A stretch of DNA of 64,000 nucleotides from a virus. Each line of letters starts with the position of its first letter. The stretch's first letter is position 1. The notes beneath the pieces are model-generated. The model searched no databases. It worked only from the letters and a program-made list of their open reading frames with translations, and had not been told where the DNA came from. The stretch spans positions 1 through 64,000 of the IMG/VR virus record IMGVR_UViG_3300008259_000237; one strand, given 5' to 3'. The translations under genes were made by a program, and so were the position numbers. Positions 52,033 to 59,973 of the stretch are shown in pieces.

Positions 52033-53877
52033 CTATTTTTTTTCACCACTATTACTTTGACCGTAGTTAGTTTGTATCTCCTGTATTGCTTTAACTAAAG
52101 CCATCCTAAAATTAGGGTCTTCAAGGGCTTTTTGTAATTGAGCGGTATCTACGTTTGATGGAGCGTCTAATGTCATTCTAATGTCTATTTTTCCATCATG
52201 CGACACCGTTTGAGTATTGCTCATAGTTGATGGTTGATTAGTCCCTCCAACAGTATTTAATGTGTTATTAACCTCATTGGTCATCAACGATTGTGTTGTG
52301 GGTGGTTTTGTGTTTCCGGTTTCTTTATTAAATCCTTCATGTTCCTTAACAGTATCAACTGTTGCTCCAACCGCAGCGTTCACAACTTTTATAATTTCAT
52401 TATTTGAGTTTTGTAATAATTGTGCGGTAGACATTGCTGATTCCATAGAAGTTTTAAACCCTCCTTGAAAGAATTCTGTCATTCCTTTCCCCGCATCTCC
52501 TAATGCGGTAAAAATATCCATAGCACTTCCTTCCCCTGTTAGAGCTTTAGTTAAAGAACCTAACACACCTGTCATTCCCTGTTCATATTGTGTTCTAATA
52601 CCTTTAATATCAAACCCTTTAGCTAAGTCAGTTATCGTAGAGTAAGTTAGTTTCGCGGCTTCCAATTGGTCTTCCCCCATCTTACTTCCCGCAACCGCAT
52701 ATCCTGACCTATTCGCTAAAGCTTCCAAATTTTTATCAATATTTGTCTGAACATCAAGTTGAGCCTTAGCCATTTCTTCAACTGTTTTTGGCTGGCTTTC
52801 TTTCATGAACTCTTGGAATGCCTTTTGGTCTCCTTGGAACTTATCCATGAGTTTATTAACCTCAACCTCTTGTCCCTTATACTGAACTACGTACTCTCCA
52901 GTTTCACTCATTTCCGCCATATTGGCGATAAACTGTCTATCCTCTTCTTTGATTCCATCAGGAAACTTAATTTTCTGTAGTTTGTCATCAACTTCCTTAG
53001 CCCCAATGGCCATTTTAGCAAACTCACTATAGTTCATACCCATCGCCTTTGCGATTTCGGTCATCCTTCCTTTAGCCCCTGGCATGATTTCGAACTTACC
53101 TTTTTCATTAAGTTCAACAAACCCTTTACCTACTTCAGACATTTGTCTTTGTAGTTCGGCCGGGTCATTCCTCGACAAATCCATTAATTTTAATGGGTCA
53201 AGTAATTGTGATTGAGCAACTCCTAATCTTTGCAAAGCGGATGCTGCTTCGATAGCTCCTTCAGGATTGAATACCATATCCGCAAATTTAAAGGTGCTTT
53301 CCATACTCATGTTTATCATTTTAGCGTGACCCGCCATCTTGGCTAAACCCTCAATCCCTCCATCAAAATGATATTCATTTAATTTACCCATATTTGTTAC
53401 AACCATACTAGAAACGGCCTGAGCATTAACACCCATTTCTCTTGCGGAATTTACCACTTTTTCCATTTCTTTACCTGATTGATAGGTAGATATACCAACT
53501 TCTTTCATTGCAGGTAAAACCTTACTGATATCTTGACCTGTAACTTGTTGCATTGCAAATATTTTTTCATACGCACTTGAGGCCAGTATCATATTCCTAC
53601 CTAAAACTTCCCCAACGTCTTTTTGGATATCTACAATGTCCGAAAATTTACCTCCTAATAGGGTTACTTCTGTGACCGCAGCGGTCATCGCCCCTTTTAA
53701 TTCAACTATATTGTCTCTACCTAAACCAAAACTTTTGGTAATTTTCATGGTCTCGATGTCAACTTCGACCAATTTCTTTTTGACGGATTCTACGTCAAAG
53801 TTAGTAGCAATCGAGCTAGCAATTTCTTTACCTAAATCAACAAAGACATCTCTAATTTCGGTTAACCCACTTGACAT
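52033..53877 (-). CDS. Tape measure-like tail protein
   Basis: The 614-residue protein is almost entirely helical with many Ala, Met, Lys and Glu residues: MTAAVTEVTLLGGKFSDIVD, SGKEMEKVVNSAREMGVNAQ, PEGAIEAASALQRLGVAQSQ and MTEFFQGGFKTSMESAMSTA. The QRLGVAQSQLLDPLKLMDLS segment and the absence of enzyme motifs fit a tail length-determining protein. The place also fits: after the tail tube and a chaperone-like gene, before the baseplate hub genes. At about 0.15 nm per helical residue it would set a tail of roughly 90 nm. The C-terminal 100 residues are polar (Asn, Thr, Ser). T4 gp29 is the functional counterpart, although I see no sequence motif shared with it. Confidence 0.65.
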   Translation of the reverse strand: MSSGLTEIRDVFVDLGKEIASSIATNFDVESVKKKLVEVDIETMKITKSFGLGRDNIVELKGAMTAAVTEVTLLGGKFSDIVDIQKDVGEVLGRNMILASSAYEKIFAMQQVTGQDISKVLPAMKEVGISTYQSGKEMEKVVNSAREMGVNAQAVSSMVVTNMGKLNEYHFDGGIEGLAKMAGHAKMINMSMESTFKFADMVFNPEGAIEAASALQRLGVAQSQLLDPLKLMDLSRNDPAELQRQMSEVGKGFVELNEKGKFEIMPGAKGRMTEIAKAMGMNYSEFAKMAIGAKEVDDKLQKIKFPDGIKEEDRQFIANMAEMSETGEYVVQYKGQEVEVNKLMDKFQGDQKAFQEFMKESQPKTVEEMAKAQLDVQTNIDKNLEALANRSGYAVAGSKMGEDQLEAAKLTYSTITDLAKGFDIKGIRTQYEQGMTGVLGSLTKALTGEGSAMDIFTALGDAGKGMTEFFQGGFKTSMESAMSTAQLLQNSNNEIIKVVNAAVGATVDTVKEHEGFNKETGNTKPPTTQSLMTNEVNNTLNTVGGTNQPSTMSNTQTVSHDGKIDIRMTLDAPSNVDTAQLQKALEDPNFRMALVKAIQEIQTNYGQSNSGEKK

Positions 53878-53906: not shown

Positions 53907-54065
53907 TTAGTTTTTATTTGGTGTATTGATTTCAATAATCCTACCAACCAAATATTTTCTAACATAAGTGGGCATAAAAAGATACTCAGAGTATTGTGTC
54001 CTCAATACTCTTGACATCAATAGATATTCATCAATTAAGTATTGACGATAACTAGAAGAAAGGGC
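53907..54065 (-). CDS. Out-of-frame extension of the chaperone-like protein (probable programmed frameshift)
   Basis: This +1 frame is open from just after a TAG at 54093-54095 to TAA 53907-53909. It encodes 52 residues (ALSSSYRQYLIDEYLLMSRV, then LRTQYSEYLFMPTYVRKYLV, GRIIEINTPNKN) that look like real protein: helical, rich in Tyr, Arg and Leu, with no stop. There is no ATG before the 18th residue and no intergenic gap upstream, so the natural way to translate it is a frame shift from the 54052-54810 gene at the T6 run. The fusion would be about 300 residues. A short independent peptide of 36 residues from the internal ATG is the alternative. Confidence 0.6.
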   Translation of the reverse strand, partial: ALSSSYRQYLIDEYLLMSRVLRTQYSEYLFMPTYVRKYLVGRIIEINTPNKN

Positions 54066-54810
54066 GAAAAAAGTCGGCCCCAAAAGTAACGTCTACTGTT
54101 ACAATTTCTCCTGATGGGGCTTTTACTGTTTTTTTAAGGTCAAGACCTGGTTGATTATCTCTTAGAAAATTTCTAATATGTTTGGAATCGGATATTGGCA
54201 TTTGGTCCACAAATTTAGCAATATTCCCTTTATCCCTACTGCCGTTAAGTTCAACAACTTGTTTTGTCAATCTCCAAGTTATCTTGGGGGCGACTCTACC
54301 TGCCGGGTATTCGTTAGCCATTCTATCAATCTCAACAATTTCAGAATAAGATAAAGGTTTTAATTTAACTTCAACCTGACTTTTAGGTAATTTAGTAACA
54401 AACAAGCCTTCCTCATTTGGTTTGTGTTCGGTTTGTTTGATATTTAACTCATCCAAACTAATTGAAGCTTCAAACATTTTACTTGTTTTTGGGTCCTCAA
54501 CATTAATAAGGTATTCACTACCAAATGATGTATTTCTTAAAAAAATCATAATCGCCTCAACATCACCTTCAAGTAATTCTTCAGGTCTTAAGTCATGCTC
54601 ATATAATTTATTTCTTAGTAATGTCAGTACCAAATTATCTTGGACATTCATTGCCGCGTTAATAATTATATTTTCGTCGTTAGCCGTAAGATAACCTACT
54701 TTTACTGACTTCTTTTTAGATTTATAGAAAATACCAGCCGATGGTAATGATACAACATCGTGTGGTAATGAAAAATTTTCTGTTGCAGCTTGTAATAATT
54801 GAGCGTCCAT
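54052..54810 (-). CDS. T4 base plate family protein (gp26/gp51-like), likely tail assembly chaperone
   Basis: The protein has 252 residues. FSLPHDVVSLPSAGIFYKSK, then VGYLTANDENIIINA, a helical LVLTLLRNKLYEHDLRPEEL, and EAIMIFLRNTSFGSEYLINV match the pattern of the T4 gp26/gp51 base plate family (LPS.G..Y; E..I; R....G..Y.....C/D). Those T4 proteins are needed for hub assembly and are not, or only scarcely, found in the virion. The gene lies between tail tube and tape measure, exactly where other tailed phages place tail assembly chaperones. Like those, it has a second out-of-frame ORF overlapping its 3' end. The short form ends in DFFRPFF followed by TAG at 54052-54054. Confidence 0.72.
   Translation of the reverse strand: MDAQLLQAATENFSLPHDVVSLPSAGIFYKSKKKSVKVGYLTANDENIIINAAMNVQDNLVLTLLRNKLYEHDLRPEELLEGDVEAIMIFLRNTSFGSEYLINVEDPKTSKMFEASISLDELNIKQTEHKPNEEGLFVTKLPKSQVEVKLKPLSYSEIVEIDRMANEYPAGRVAPKITWRLTKQVVELNGSRDKGNIAKFVDQMPISDSKHIRNFLRDNQPGLDLKKTVKAPSGEIVTVDVTFGADFFRPFF
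54067..54072 (-). other. Slippery T6 run, probable frameshift site
   Basis: Sense codons are GAC TTT TTT CGC. A +1 slip of the second Phe codon moves its tRNA from UUU to the better-matched UUC, and decoding goes on with GCC in the new frame. The next in-frame codon CGC is presumably rare in this AT-rich genome and could cause the pause. The overlap of the two frames is only about 40 bases (54052-54092), so any shift must take place here. A -2 slip would give the same frame. Confidence 0.55.
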
Positions 54811-54853: not shown

Positions 54854-54970
54854 TTATTTATTTTGTTTATCGACAGGTTTAGTATACTTTTCTTTGTGTC
54901 TATTTAAAAACTCTTCTTCAGTTTCAAATATTTTACCACAAGTGTTACATGTATATCCAGTTGTTTCCAT
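54854..54970 (-). CDS. Tiny zinc finger-like protein
   Basis: The 38-residue protein reads YTCNTCGKIFETEEEFLNRH, then KEKYTKP, i.e. a C-x2-C pair followed by the F.....F...H spacing of C2H2 zinc fingers. A second His is absent (Tyr or Lys in its place). It may bind DNA or act as a small assembly or regulatory factor. The ATG follows directly on the T8 run of the terminator behind the tail tube gene, leaving no normal leader. It is too short for routine gene calls, but the Cys pair and clean codon pattern support it. Confidence 0.6.
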   Translation of the reverse strand: METTGYTCNTCGKIFETEEEFLNRHKEKYTKPVDKQNK

Positions 54971-55002
54971 AAAAAAAATCCCGTATACTGATATATACGG
55001 GA
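54971..55002 (-). terminator. Rho-independent terminator after the tail tube gene
   Basis: In the sense strand TCCCGTATA / TATACGGGA (9-bp stem, 6-base loop) is followed by eight T. It lies about 25 bases after the tube stop and ends exactly at the next ATG (54970). It would raise tube mRNA relative to downstream genes. Confidence 0.88.
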
Positions 55003-55026
55003 CATTTTAAAATATGTAAATAATTT

Positions 55027-55515
55027 TTAGTATACCAAAATACAACGGTCCATACGGAGTGTTGCCGAGATACTAGCCAATGCGTCTGAGTTATACGCTA
55101 AAGTATCAAAGTTAACATCAGATAAGAATGTTCCCTCAAGTATCCATTTCTCCACAACAACTCCTGTTGGGTCTAATAATTCAAGGTCAACATTTTTCTT
55201 ATAACCCGCGGCGTAACCCATACGACCTGTAACTGATTCGGCACATAGACGAACCCACTCCATAAGAGCTTGTGACGCTGAAGGTCCAATAGGGTCACGG
55301 AATTTAACGTTAATTGTGCTCCAAGTAAATCTACCAGCAACATAAGTTTCCGTATTTAAAAATGGAATCGCAACAGGGTTAATTGTTATGTGTGGACGAG
55401 CCGCGCTTTCAACGAACCACTCGTTTATCCCTAATGTAGTATCAAAACGCAAAATAAATCTATTCTGCCTTTTGGGTTCGTAGGGTATCGGCATTTTCAT
55501 TAGTAAATCAGCCAT
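55027..55515 (-). CDS. Tail tube protein, T4 gp19-like
   Basis: The protein has 162 residues. PYEPKRQNRFILRFDTTLGI, then NEWFVESAARPHITINPVAI, TWSTINVKFRDPIGPSASQA and LELLDPTGVVVEKWILEGTF are the hallmark elements of gp19-type tube proteins; the length is identical in class to T4 gp19 (about 163). It polymerises around the tape measure to form the inner tail tube through which DNA passes. It is the second major structural gene behind the sheath, with a HAD-type gene inserted between them, and is followed by a strong terminator, consistent with very high expression. Confidence 0.9.
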   Translation of the reverse strand: MADLLMKMPIPYEPKRQNRFILRFDTTLGINEWFVESAARPHITINPVAIPFLNTETYVAGRFTWSTINVKFRDPIGPSASQALMEWVRLCAESVTGRMGYAAGYKKNVDLELLDPTGVVVEKWILEGTFLSDVNFDTLAYNSDALASISATLRMDRCILVY

Positions 55516-56447: not shown

Positions 56448-56474
56448 AAAAACAAGCCGGTTTTTACACCGGCT
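56447..56474 (-). terminator. Rho-independent terminator after the sheath gene
   Basis: In the sense strand AGCCGG / CCGGCT with an 8-base loop is followed by TGTTTTTT. The stem starts inside the sheath stop codon TAG (56473-56475). Confidence 0.8.
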
Positions 56475-59400
56475 AAATCTTACCTGTCATTTGGTTTCTA
56501 TCTAAGTCCGCAGTGTCTGAAGAAACAGTTACACGGAAATCGTATAAACCTCTGTCTCTTCTGATTGCGTCTAAGATTGGGTTAACCGCATCCAAGAAGT
56601 CCTGTCTAACCTTTTGGTCGTTTTGTTCAAACAACAATCTAACAGAAACTGCGGAAATCAACTTACGAGCTTGTAATAACAATCTTCTTACGTTGATTCT
56701 GTCAAGAGCCGACTCTCTAACTTGAAGAGTTTTATTACCCCAAATTACCGTTCCTACATCAGAGAAGGTTGCAATTGGGTTAATTCTACCTTTATATAGA
56801 GTGTCTCTATCTTCTTGTGTGAGTTTCTTACGAGCTTTAATCGCGTTCACTATACCACGAGTGTAACCTGCCGCCGCGAACCAAGGGAATGCGATGTTAT
56901 CGGTTAACGCCAAGTTTCTTGTAACTTCAGCAGTTGGTGGTAGGTAAATTTGAGTGTTGTTAACACTATCACGAGTTAACACCCAAGGGTAATAAGTACA
57001 AGTGTAGTTAGAGTCAATACCTGTTGTCTCAAGATTATCCACCGCTTCTTGTGGGTAAATTAAATCTTCTGAGTTACCTGGTGCTGATACAAACATATTG
57101 TAGTCAGGTGTTGTACAGATATATAAAGAATCCGCTCTGTCGTACTCAATCATTTCGATTGCTGATTCAACAAGATTAGAATTATTCACATAATCAATAC
57201 CTGGAGTTACAAATACGTTGATATTAGTGGCTTCAGGGTTTTCAAAAGATTTTTGACCAAGTAAGTAAGCGTAATAGTCGGTATTTGCCCAATCAACTGA
57301 ATTTTTGTTAATTGTAATTTTCTTAAACGCTCCCCAACCTGTTGCATTTGGATAAGTAATTGATTCACAAGCTCCTTTTAAGTAACCTGATTTACCAATA
57401 ACAAATCTGTCAGAGTTTGTTCTATATTCTCTATAGATATCCCATCCGTCAAATCCTCCTTGAACCGCCACAGTAAATTTACGAGCGAATAATCTGTAGT
57501 AAGGATTTGTCTCATCATCAGGGTCTGTTATAAATGAACCAGAACCAACAAAGAACGCCGACTCACCACTTGTTGCAAATCCATTTGATATTGTAATACC
57601 TGTTGCATTTTTATCCATGTGGAAACCTTTAGTTCTGTAACCCCACTCATCACCTGTGTCATCTAGACAAATGTTATTAGGAATTCTTTTACCTTTGTAA
57701 GCGAAGAAATCAACATCATAACCTACAGTATCTGACACACCAAGATAAGTTCTACGAACATTATCACCCGCGCTTGTGATGCTGTCATCATTTCCGGCCG
57801 CAGTACCAAAAGGTGGGTTGTAAACCACTTCACCTGGTAGGTCGTATTTTGTTTTATAGATAGGAAATGGAGGTACCACTCCTGCGTATTCTCTCATGTT
57901 GAATCCTAAGAATCCACAAGGAAGAGCGTCTACAGGTGCGTCTTCATTCATCTCTATCATTATGTATTTTGAGTTCAATTGATATTCACCATCTGAGGTA
58001 CCTATTTTAACCGCAATGAAATTATTTTCATTTGGGTTCATACTACAGTTAGTAAACTTCTCAAGAACTACAGGTGCGTTATCTGAATCAAAATAATCTC
58101 TAACCAATATATCAAAAGTTTGATTAGCAAATGACATGTTAGCCAAAGAAATTTTAACAGTAATATTAGCATCATCACCATCAGGAACCGTGTGGAATCT
58201 GAATAGGTTATAAACTTTAGTACCTCTTAATTCGGAAACAATCCAAGGAGAAATTGCCGACTGATATCTCTCTAAATAAAAAGCGATTGAAGTTGGGTCC
58301 GCCGCTTGTCTTGCATCAGGTAATGCGGTTAAAGAAGTACTCAAACCTTTGATATAACCTTTTCTCCAAGCGTAAGTAAGAAGATTTTGATATCTTTCCT
58401 CCACAAACAACGGAACAGTTTGTCTAGGTTTTCCAAAATTAGTAGAACCAAACACTTTTCCAATATATTGAGAATCAGAATTAGTAAATGATGTTTGGAA
58501 GAATAAATTAGTTCCGTCATTATTTGTTACATTTAATCCGAATGTTGAGAAAGGATTTTTTGTAACTCCTGAATACTGTCCAGTTGTTACCATTGACACG
58601 TCATTCATTCCGGTTACTTCATATACCGCTCCAGTGTCGTTACCATAAGTTGCAACACCTCTTGAACGTAATGTAGCAATAACCATGTCATCGTAACTTA
58701 AATAAGGTGTTCCTGAGTATACAAAAATTTGTCCCGACAATGTACCTTGATAACATCTAGTTATAGTTCCTGTATTTTGAGTTCCTGCGCTTGTAAAATT
58801 ACAAGGATTACATGGGTCATTAACAACTGCAGTAACTGTCCATTGTTCAGTAACCGTTCCGTCATTTGAAACTACCTCAAAAATAACAGTTCCCGCACTG
58901 AAATTAACAGGTGTTGCTCCGTCATAAATTGTACCTACTCCGTTAACACTCACATTTGATGCGTCTACACAAGTTGTAAAACTAGGAATAAATTCGCCTA
59001 AAGGACTTGGTACACATACTGAAATTGTATTTGTGTTATAATTTATAATACCATTGTTACCGTCTAAACTAAAAGTATAGAAAGTTGCACAATTATCAGC
59101 GGTTGATGTCAGTTCAAATGAACTGATGTACGAATAAAAAGAGTATCCTGAATATCCACCAACTTCGTGGGAGTTATTGTCAAATAATCCATAGTACCAA
59201 GGGTCATTATTTGGGTCTGTATAGTCATAACCTGTAGAAGATACGCTATCAACACCAAAAACATTAGTCGCTGCGGTATATGTTGGGGATAACGCACTGT
59301 ATGTTTCCCCTGAAATTACACCGTAGTAATATATTGTGTTTGCGGTGGTTGAACCTGTACCTCCGGCTAATATTGAATTAAATATTTGGGTATCAATGTT

Positions 59401-59973
59401 TGATTGAACTGTTGTTACACTACCGTTAAACAACTCCATAGGGATTGTTAATTTATTCGATAAAACTGCAGGTATCTGTGCGGTATTAGTAAATTGGATA
59501 GTGTTGATATTATCAGAACAACCTATGAAATCAATATCAAAATCAATCACCTCATAATCGACACATTCAATCACACAGTCGACTGTTGTGGCTGAATTAC
59601 AATAAAATCCAACTGTGGCTCCGTCAACATTTGCTTTCGTAGTGATTGACCAAGATGGTCCAGCGTCATATCCTGATAAACCAAGAACTCTTGTTACAAA
59701 TAATTGATTTGATTGTTGTAAGTAGGATTTTGCAATATACGCCGCCTCATACTTTGGGATTTGAGTGTTAATAAATTTTTCAGGTGAGGTCCCACCGAAA
59801 TAAGTTTCAAATTCGTCAAAGTTTTTGATGAATATTGGCTCGAAGGCCGGACCTCTTAAGGTCTCACCTACAATACCAAGAGTTGTTACACCAACACTTT
59901 GAGCAACAAAACTTAAGTCAACCTCTGAGGTATAAACCCCAGGAGAAACGAATACTTTTGAGTTGCTAGCCAT
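56473..59973 (-). CDS. Tail sheath protein, gp18-like, with a large insertion
   Basis: The protein has 1166 residues. The N-terminus (VFVSPGVYTSEVDLSFVAQS, then VGVTTLGIVGETLRGPAFEP, IFIKNFDEFETYFGG) and the C-terminus (IAFPWFAAAGYTRGIVNAIK, INPIATFSDVGTVIWGNKTL, then LDRINVRRLLLQARKLISAV, FRVTVSSDTADLDRNQMTGK) are classical for contractile sheath proteins. T4 gp18 has 659 residues; here about 300 extra residues lie between about 120 and 420 (Cys-rich, Ig-like stretches such as VIECVDYEVIDFDIDFIGCS). The sheath frame resumes at YDDMVIATLRSRGVATY. It polymerises around the tube and contracts during infection. It carries its own motif and terminator, consistent with high expression. Confidence 0.92.
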   Translation of the reverse strand: MASNSKVFVSPGVYTSEVDLSFVAQSVGVTTLGIVGETLRGPAFEPIFIKNFDEFETYFGGTSPEKFINTQIPKYEAAYIAKSYLQQSNQLFVTRVLGLSGYDAGPSWSITTKANVDGATVGFYCNSATTVDCVIECVDYEVIDFDIDFIGCSDNINTIQFTNTAQIPAVLSNKLTIPMELFNGSVTTVQSNIDTQIFNSILAGGTGSTTANTIYYYGVISGETYSALSPTYTAATNVFGVDSVSSTGYDYTDPNNDPWYYGLFDNNSHEVGGYSGYSFYSYISSFELTSTADNCATFYTFSLDGNNGIINYNTNTISVCVPSPLGEFIPSFTTCVDASNVSVNGVGTIYDGATPVNFSAGTVIFEVVSNDGTVTEQWTVTAVVNDPCNPCNFTSAGTQNTGTITRCYQGTLSGQIFVYSGTPYLSYDDMVIATLRSRGVATYGNDTGAVYEVTGMNDVSMVTTGQYSGVTKNPFSTFGLNVTNNDGTNLFFQTSFTNSDSQYIGKVFGSTNFGKPRQTVPLFVEERYQNLLTYAWRKGYIKGLSTSLTALPDARQAADPTSIAFYLERYQSAISPWIVSELRGTKVYNLFRFHTVPDGDDANITVKISLANMSFANQTFDILVRDYFDSDNAPVVLEKFTNCSMNPNENNFIAVKIGTSDGEYQLNSKYIMIEMNEDAPVDALPCGFLGFNMREYAGVVPPFPIYKTKYDLPGEVVYNPPFGTAAGNDDSITSAGDNVRRTYLGVSDTVGYDVDFFAYKGKRIPNNICLDDTGDEWGYRTKGFHMDKNATGITISNGFATSGESAFFVGSGSFITDPDDETNPYYRLFARKFTVAVQGGFDGWDIYREYRTNSDRFVIGKSGYLKGACESITYPNATGWGAFKKITINKNSVDWANTDYYAYLLGQKSFENPEATNINVFVTPGIDYVNNSNLVESAIEMIEYDRADSLYICTTPDYNMFVSAPGNSEDLIYPQEAVDNLETTGIDSNYTCTYYPWVLTRDSVNNTQIYLPPTAEVTRNLALTDNIAFPWFAAAGYTRGIVNAIKARKKLTQEDRDTLYKGRINPIATFSDVGTVIWGNKTLQVRESALDRINVRRLLLQARKLISAVSVRLLFEQNDQKVRQDFLDAVNPILDAIRRDRGLYDFRVTVSSDTADLDRNQMTGKI

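Follow-up and report, generated by a model that had tools for sequence, protein, structure and literature searches.

A stretch of viral DNA of 64,000 nucleotides (positions 1 to 64,000 of IMG/VR record IMGVR_UViG_3300008259_000237; hereafter the window), part of a 69 kb virus contig with a T4-type tail module carried wholly on the (-) strand, raises the question of how a tail gene whose product ends in DFFRPFF is related to a second reading frame that overlaps its last bases and has no early start codon. A first-pass annotation, made from the letters of this DNA, had proposed a +1 slip of the ribosome on a T6 run at the end of this gene, giving a long form of 300 residues, and had taken the gp26/gp51-like product to be the chaperone of a T4-type tail. 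Comparison with related sequences indicates that the programmed frameshift in this gene is real and conserved, and that skipping of one base by ribosomes near the end of the gene almost certainly gives the virus two forms of a single helper protein for tail building. The best explanation, to which we assign a probability of about 0.88, is a tail assembly chaperone (TAC) gene of a T4-type contractile tail, expressed as a short form and, through a +1 shift, as a 300-aa long form. The position of the gene, its homology, the conserved dual-frame coding with its slip site and the nucleotide-level constraint are all shown by the sequences. The elements concerned are the following.

54052..54810, (-) strand: zero-frame open reading frame (ORF) of 252 aa, the short form (TAC-N), of the T4_baseplate / gp26-gp51 family (PF12322, E 1.2e-12; phrog_150 baseplate hub, E 1e-16; 459 relatives in viral_contigs)
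54064..54072, (-) strand: slip site UUU UUU CGC, with UUU at 54067-54069 in the P site, from which the tRNA can move onto UUC (54066-54068), and CGC in the A site
54052..54092, (-) strand: stretch open in both frames, comprising the 38 nt before the short stop and the stop itself
53910..54065, (-) strand: +1-frame extension of 52 aa, ALSSSYRQYLIDEYLLMSRVLRTQYSEYLFMPTYVRKYLVGRIIEINTPNKN, which the short form lacks and the 300-aa long form (TAC-NC) would carry, from frame reading and conservation in relatives
53907..53909, (-) strand: stop codon of the long form, TAA

The 252-aa ORF ends in GAC TTT TTT CGC CCT TTC TTC TAG, with the T6 run at 54067-54072 and the CGC codon at 54064-54066, so that within the overlap a zero-frame UUU is followed by a rare CGN codon, as in known UUU_CGN shifts. 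In the +1 frame no stop codon occurs between 54092 and the TAA at 53907-53909, and a shift of +1 after the second TTT (UUU_CGC) would give a product of exactly 300 residues. No ATG occurs among the first 16 codons after the shift (ALSSSYRQYLIDEYLLM), the first methionine being residue 17, and the junction peptide across the shift is predicted from the letters to be APSGEIVTVDVTFGADFFALSSSYR. The first-pass annotation had thus read the locus correctly, both in the gene between tube and tape measure with its T6 run and DFFRPFF end and in the second frame, open through 53910, with its overlap of about 40 bases and no early ATG; the length that it gave for a long form made by a UUU to UUC slip was exact, and the comparative evidence favours the +1 direction.

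That the slip site, the overlap frame and the missing start should be conserved had been named as support for the proposal, and this was borne out in a larger set of 217 distinct loci, drawn from scans and isolates. At the chaperone ends of these loci the +1 frame alone is open in 191, both frames in 10, the -1 frame in 15 and neither in one; the same open-frame test was passed by 7 of 423 other ORF ends from these loci, compared with 197 of the 217 chaperone ends by that test and 201 by the frame count just given. An in-frame TTT followed by C or T is found in 194 of the 201 loci with an open +1 frame, the slip codons being TTT_TGG (87), TTT_CGN (52), TTT_CTT (34), TTT_TAC (9) and rarer others, and 110 of the 201 lack an ATG in the stretch. 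TTT_CGN is kept in all of the nearest viral_contigs relatives (61-100% amino acid identity), as TTT TTT CGN or, at two loci, TTC TTT CGG. Their +1 frame runs to 139-145 nt beyond the short stop, with the extension consensus LSSxYRQxLIEEYxLMxKFxRxSYxDFxxMPTYVRKYLINKIIExNTP. Isolates of the family come from Flavobacterium, Microcystis, Bacillus, Listeria, Streptococcus, Rhodothermus and Streptomyces hosts, and in their records the extension region is annotated as a gap or as a tiny hypothetical gene. A scan of bacterial genomes turned up no relative.

Some loci depart from these slip codons. A subgroup with short forms ending in ELFNPSK (L195, L198, L200, L204) has an open +1 frame and no TTT_Y, with CCC_A as a possible +1 site. 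In Listeria phage LIS04 (L088), which has TTT TTT_AGT, the tRNA on the last UUU would meet a wobble mismatch (UUA) on moving one base forward; its slip region differs from that of its relatives, which have UUU_C.

Constraint at the nucleotide level was assessed in the window family, comprising 35 distinct sequences. The arginine codon after the slip is CGN in all 35 (CGC or CGG in 29), and neither CGC nor CGG is used in the rest of the window-family genes. Across ten late genes of the window CGC is the rarest arginine codon, used for one of 231 arginines, and in-frame TTT_CGN also occurs once, both at the slip site. Beyond the short stop the extension shows pN of 0.21 against pS of 0.67, which indicates that it evolves as a protein. 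The glycine codon at -9 is GGG in 35/35 sequences (background 11%) and the alanine codon at -22 is GCC in 35/35 (background 6%); around the slip site the constraint is extreme, and the synonymous-site signal that the first-pass annotation had suggested looking for in the overlap is strong. The two upstream codons lie in complementary elements.

54077..54081, (-) strand: GGGGC, candidate 3' arm of an upstream stem or Shine-Dalgarno (SD)-like stimulator (Gly GGG fixed in 35/35 relatives)
54116..54120, (-) strand: GCCCC, candidate 5' arm, complementary to 54077-54081 (Ala GCC fixed in 35/35 relatives)

GGG also occupies the equivalent glycine position in 26 of 41 sequences of the TTT_TGG group and 22 of 30 of the TTT_CTT group, against a background of 5-7%. 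Judged from these patterns, the GCCCC/GGGG pair could form a stem just upstream of the slip or act through the anti-SD of the ribosome; every position is invariant, so there is no covariation and the pairing stays a candidate. Upstream of the slip, pairing with the anti-SD exceeds the average without standing out, ranking in the top 2-9% of gene positions. Downstream, the search for RNA structure found no conserved stimulatory stem, the consensus showing no more than weak pairing among dual-coding columns; the window has a 9-bp hairpin (53988-54011) that is absent from the family consensus, and an Rfam search gave no match above threshold.

From comparison of the relatives, +1 is most likely the direction of the shift at UUU_CGC. 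The T6 run, on which the first-pass annotation had based the slip, is present and the slip would fall there, but UUU_Y with slippage in the P site (here UUU_CGC) is the better description, because relatives without such a run keep UUU_C. In the same frame these relatives read TTC TTT CGG (L015, L024), TTC TTT CGT (L086; Streptococcus phage GXN1), AGC TTT CTT TGG (the L085 group of 32 loci; Flavobacterium phage immuto) and ATC CTG TTT CGC (L094; Streptomyces phage BRock). That they all keep the frame makes it quite unlikely that the same two proteins arise by a slip back of two bases on the T6 run, as in Mu, even though the window and most relatives have a T6 or T7 run and a -2 slip reaches the same frame; in the T6-free relatives the -2 re-pairing of tRNA-Phe would be mismatched, whereas the +1 move from UUU to UUC is matched. 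The two directions predict different junctions, ending in GADFFALSSSYR for +1 and GADFFFALSSSYR for -2, with DFFALSSSYR (+1) and DFFFALSSSYR, one F more (-2), as the junction peptides of the window gene. A -1 shift at X_XXY_YYZ does not fit the window, which has C_TTT_TTT and a -1 (+2) frame that ends 17 nt past the short stop. Slippage of RNA polymerase on the T6 run, by which a fraction of messages would be one U short, would accord with the T runs of 6-7 in most members; it is highly improbable, as the runs are short, members with C- or G-interrupted runs (L085, L086, L094, L015) keep the arrangement, and the CGN codon is fixed although it would have no role in such slippage.

The extension might also be a separate small protein that starts inside or just after the short gene, and a TTG ATG pair 16-17 codons past the slip in the window, as well as the tiny ORF annotated at the extension in some isolates, would suit such a start. 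We consider this very unlikely: the stretch has no ATG in 11 of the 35 window-family sequences, with ATG positions differing in the others, or in the 110 of 201 loci given above; the conserved upstream part of the extension (LSSxYR) would not be translated from an internal start; and T4 carries the extension domain within gp51. A single-base sequencing or assembly error dividing one continuous ORF, which had been named as grounds for abandoning the proposal, has only the homopolymer in its favour and is excluded by the relatives, since about 200 distinct contigs, as well as independently sequenced isolates, show the same split. With the -2 slip, transcriptional slippage and the internal start set aside, the preferred reading is a +1 shift at UUU_CGC.

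A chaperone function for the two forms is indicated by gene order, by homology and by the coding arrangement. PF12322 and phrog_150 are common to the window protein and T4 gp26/gp51, dual-frame conservation with the slip site would provide a short and a long form, and the gene lies between the tail tube and tape measure genes, an order that isolates share.

56473-59973, (-) strand: sheath, in the tail module of the window
55027..55515, (-) strand: tail tube protein, upstream neighbour of the chaperone gene (phrog_4542, E 3e-25)
52033..53877, (-) strand: next gene downstream, 614 aa, in the position of the tape measure protein (from position and the annotation of the equivalent gene in isolates)

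Most ribosomes would terminate at 54052-54054 and release the 252-aa short form, while occasional re-pairing of the tRNA one base forward on UUC would lead to decoding in the +1 frame and to the 300-aa form, with its conserved and predicted helical C-terminal domain. By analogy with lambda gpG/gpGT, many short forms may coat the tape measure protein and the extension of the rarer long form may recruit tail tube subunits. It is unlikely that the frameshift is real and the protein instead a structural component of the baseplate hub. Database names do read baseplate hub, and genetic work cited in PMC3004832 put gp26 in the T4 hub; the same source, however, lists gp26 and gp51 as hub assembly chaperones, with gp51 absent from the particle, and Vladimirov, Gautam and Davidson 2022, as cited in PMC10885494, identify T4-like tail assembly chaperones. 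The tube/tape measure position and the short/long pair also fit a chaperone, and the PDB fold of highest probability is that of the HK97 tail assembly chaperone. In structure, the short form as modelled (pLDDT 90) is similar to predicted hub assembly proteins of the T4-like kind.

Several points weigh against the reading as a +1-frameshifted chaperone gene. That ribosomes shift here, how often and in the +1 direction, and that the product acts as a chaperone, are all deductions from comparison. Kinship among the sequences inflates all counts, which do not represent independent events, and the scan pattern ADFFRPFF overlaps the slip site, which may bias it towards relatives that retain the site; three other scan patterns were positioned away from the slip site. 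The rarity of CGC was judged from phage codon usage and not from host tRNAs. The Foldseek match of the short-form model to the HK97 chaperone 2ob9 (probability 0.75, TM 0.49 on target, E 0.45) is suggestive only, being not significant by E-value, and in the long-form model of a relative the extension is of low confidence (pLDDT 37-46).

T4 gp26 and gp51 both match PF12322 (E 9e-64 and 4e-52, respectively) and belong to the same family as the window protein, gp26 being the counterpart of the short form and gp51, which has the same C-terminal extension, that of the long form. T4 gp26 ends at KEFFELL, whereas gp51 runs on past that point; in PHROG 150 (282 positions) the alignment ends at position 235 for gp26, 280 for gp51 and 273 for the frameshifted product of the huge phage LR756508. 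When the +1 long forms were compared with a profile of -1/gp51 long forms (S-PM2, KVP40, HTVC008M, phiM12 and phiW-14, with gp51), they matched over the whole length including the extension (99.6%, E 4e-24); a plain family-profile search of the T4 region gave nothing significant, the gp51 homology coming via PHROG and the profile-profile comparison. T4 and a Krischvirus each have two PF12322 genes, whereas a single one exceeded the cut-off in the window contig, in ten long relatives (up to 322 kb) and in the other phages tested, apart from two in which none did and the gene was found by tblastn. The two forms would accordingly come from two genes in T4 and the Krischvirus and from one gene in the window phage. 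Because the extension is homologous to the gp51 C-terminus and has no counterpart in gp26, T4 would be a duplicated, split version of the short/long chaperone pair, and we infer that it gets by duplication what its relatives get by frameshifting.

The direction of the shift varies within the family. T4-like phages with a -1 arrangement (S-PM2, KVP40, HTVC008M, phiM12, phiW-14, RaK2, PA5oct and Atu_ph07) share the protein family, the FF at the short-form end and a homologous extension with the window phage, but use T_TTT_TTY, whereas the window has C before TTT TTT and, most likely, a +1 shift. T_TTT_TTY with the extension in the -1 frame was found in S-PM2 (L317), HTVC008M (L319), phiM12 (L321), KVP40 (L322), phiW-14 (L323) and RaK2 (L330), and in 13 of the 15 -1 loci among the 217. 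The base before the TTT-TTY pair is T in 13 of 13 -1 members having the pair, compared with 5 of 149 +1 members. A tree of 50 long forms requires two label changes for the +1 members, one of them a well-supported reversal, and places T4 gp51 on a long branch within a -1 clade. LR756511.1 (L087), a 595 kb huge phage with -1 and TTT TTT TTC, adjoins L184 (+1) within a group that is +1 elsewhere; by this placement its shift direction appears to have reversed. On balance we favour the view that a large T4-type clade uses +1 shifts at UUU_Y (UUU_CGN, UUU_UGG, UUU_CUU or CUU_UGG) for its chaperones, and that one family reached the same output by -1 shifts, by +1 shifts (with at least one reversal) and by gene duplication, with the base before a single Phe-Phe dipeptide and the codon after it setting the direction, aided by the conserved upstream GCCCC/GGGG. 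Salmonella phage Vi01 (L320) has a PF12322 gene with an extension-like -1 frame and a weak slippery site, A_ATT_TTC.

Among known systems, the +1 shift of prfB (RF2) likewise combines P-site slippage, a slow A-site codon and an upstream G-rich element, although the GGGG of the window, a candidate stimulator, lies further from the P site than in prfB. The CUU_UGG of the L085 group resembles the CUU_UGA of prfB. Lambda gpG/gpGT has the same position between tube and tape measure and the same short and frameshifted long form (PMC5009743), but shifts by -1; the comparison made for the window chaperone was one of fold, with the HK97 chaperone. Influenza PA-X, fijiviruses and amalgaviruses have the same in-frame UUU and rare CGN, with tRNA-Phe moving +1 onto UUC (PMC3498833, PMC5052127), a shift established by mass spectrometry in PA-X (PMC3498833) and inferred in amalgaviruses (PMC5052127). 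Those are eukaryotic viruses with an efficiency near 1%, whereas the window derives from a bacterial virus whose relatives also use UUU_UGG and UUU_CUU.

T4 has been named as the exception to tail-chaperone frameshifting (PMC5009743). The first-pass proposal of a chaperone role for the gp26/gp51-like protein is supported but not new, this identification in T4 being attributed to Vladimirov, Gautam and Davidson 2022 where that work is cited (PMC10885494, PMC12846349). As cited in PMC10885494, it has a short gene and a fused long gene replacing frameshifting in some phages; as cited in PMC12846349, it reports poly-T -1 signals in T4-like phages. The searchable literature yielded no description, for this family, of a +1 shift at UUU_CGN or UUU_UGG; systems of this kind are known, and the +1 UUU_Y variant, how widely it is spread and the switching of its direction seem to be undescribed there. 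By the comparisons made here T4, for whose relatives later work had argued a different mechanism, is placed as one end state of an otherwise frameshifting family, and the changes of direction at one site offer a natural series on what decides between +1 and -1 slippage. If true, the UUU_CGN class, so far one of eukaryotic viruses, would extend to bacterial viruses. An unannotated or wrongly annotated gene would also be accounted for in phages SP-15, RM378, BRock, LIS04 and Flavobacterium immuto.

Two further observations concern the surroundings of the chaperone gene. An ORF of 38 aa at 54854-54970 on the (-) strand (METTGYTCNTCGKIFETEEEFLNRHKEKYTKPVDKQNK), C2H2 zinc-finger-like, is placed between the chaperone gene and a terminator-like hairpin (54978-55003) that follows the tube gene. 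An AT-rich box resembling the T4 late promoter (TATAAATA) stands upstream of the chaperone and tape measure genes in nearly all of L002-L081; the presence of such promoter-like boxes before both genes suggests that the tape measure gene may be transcribed separately late.
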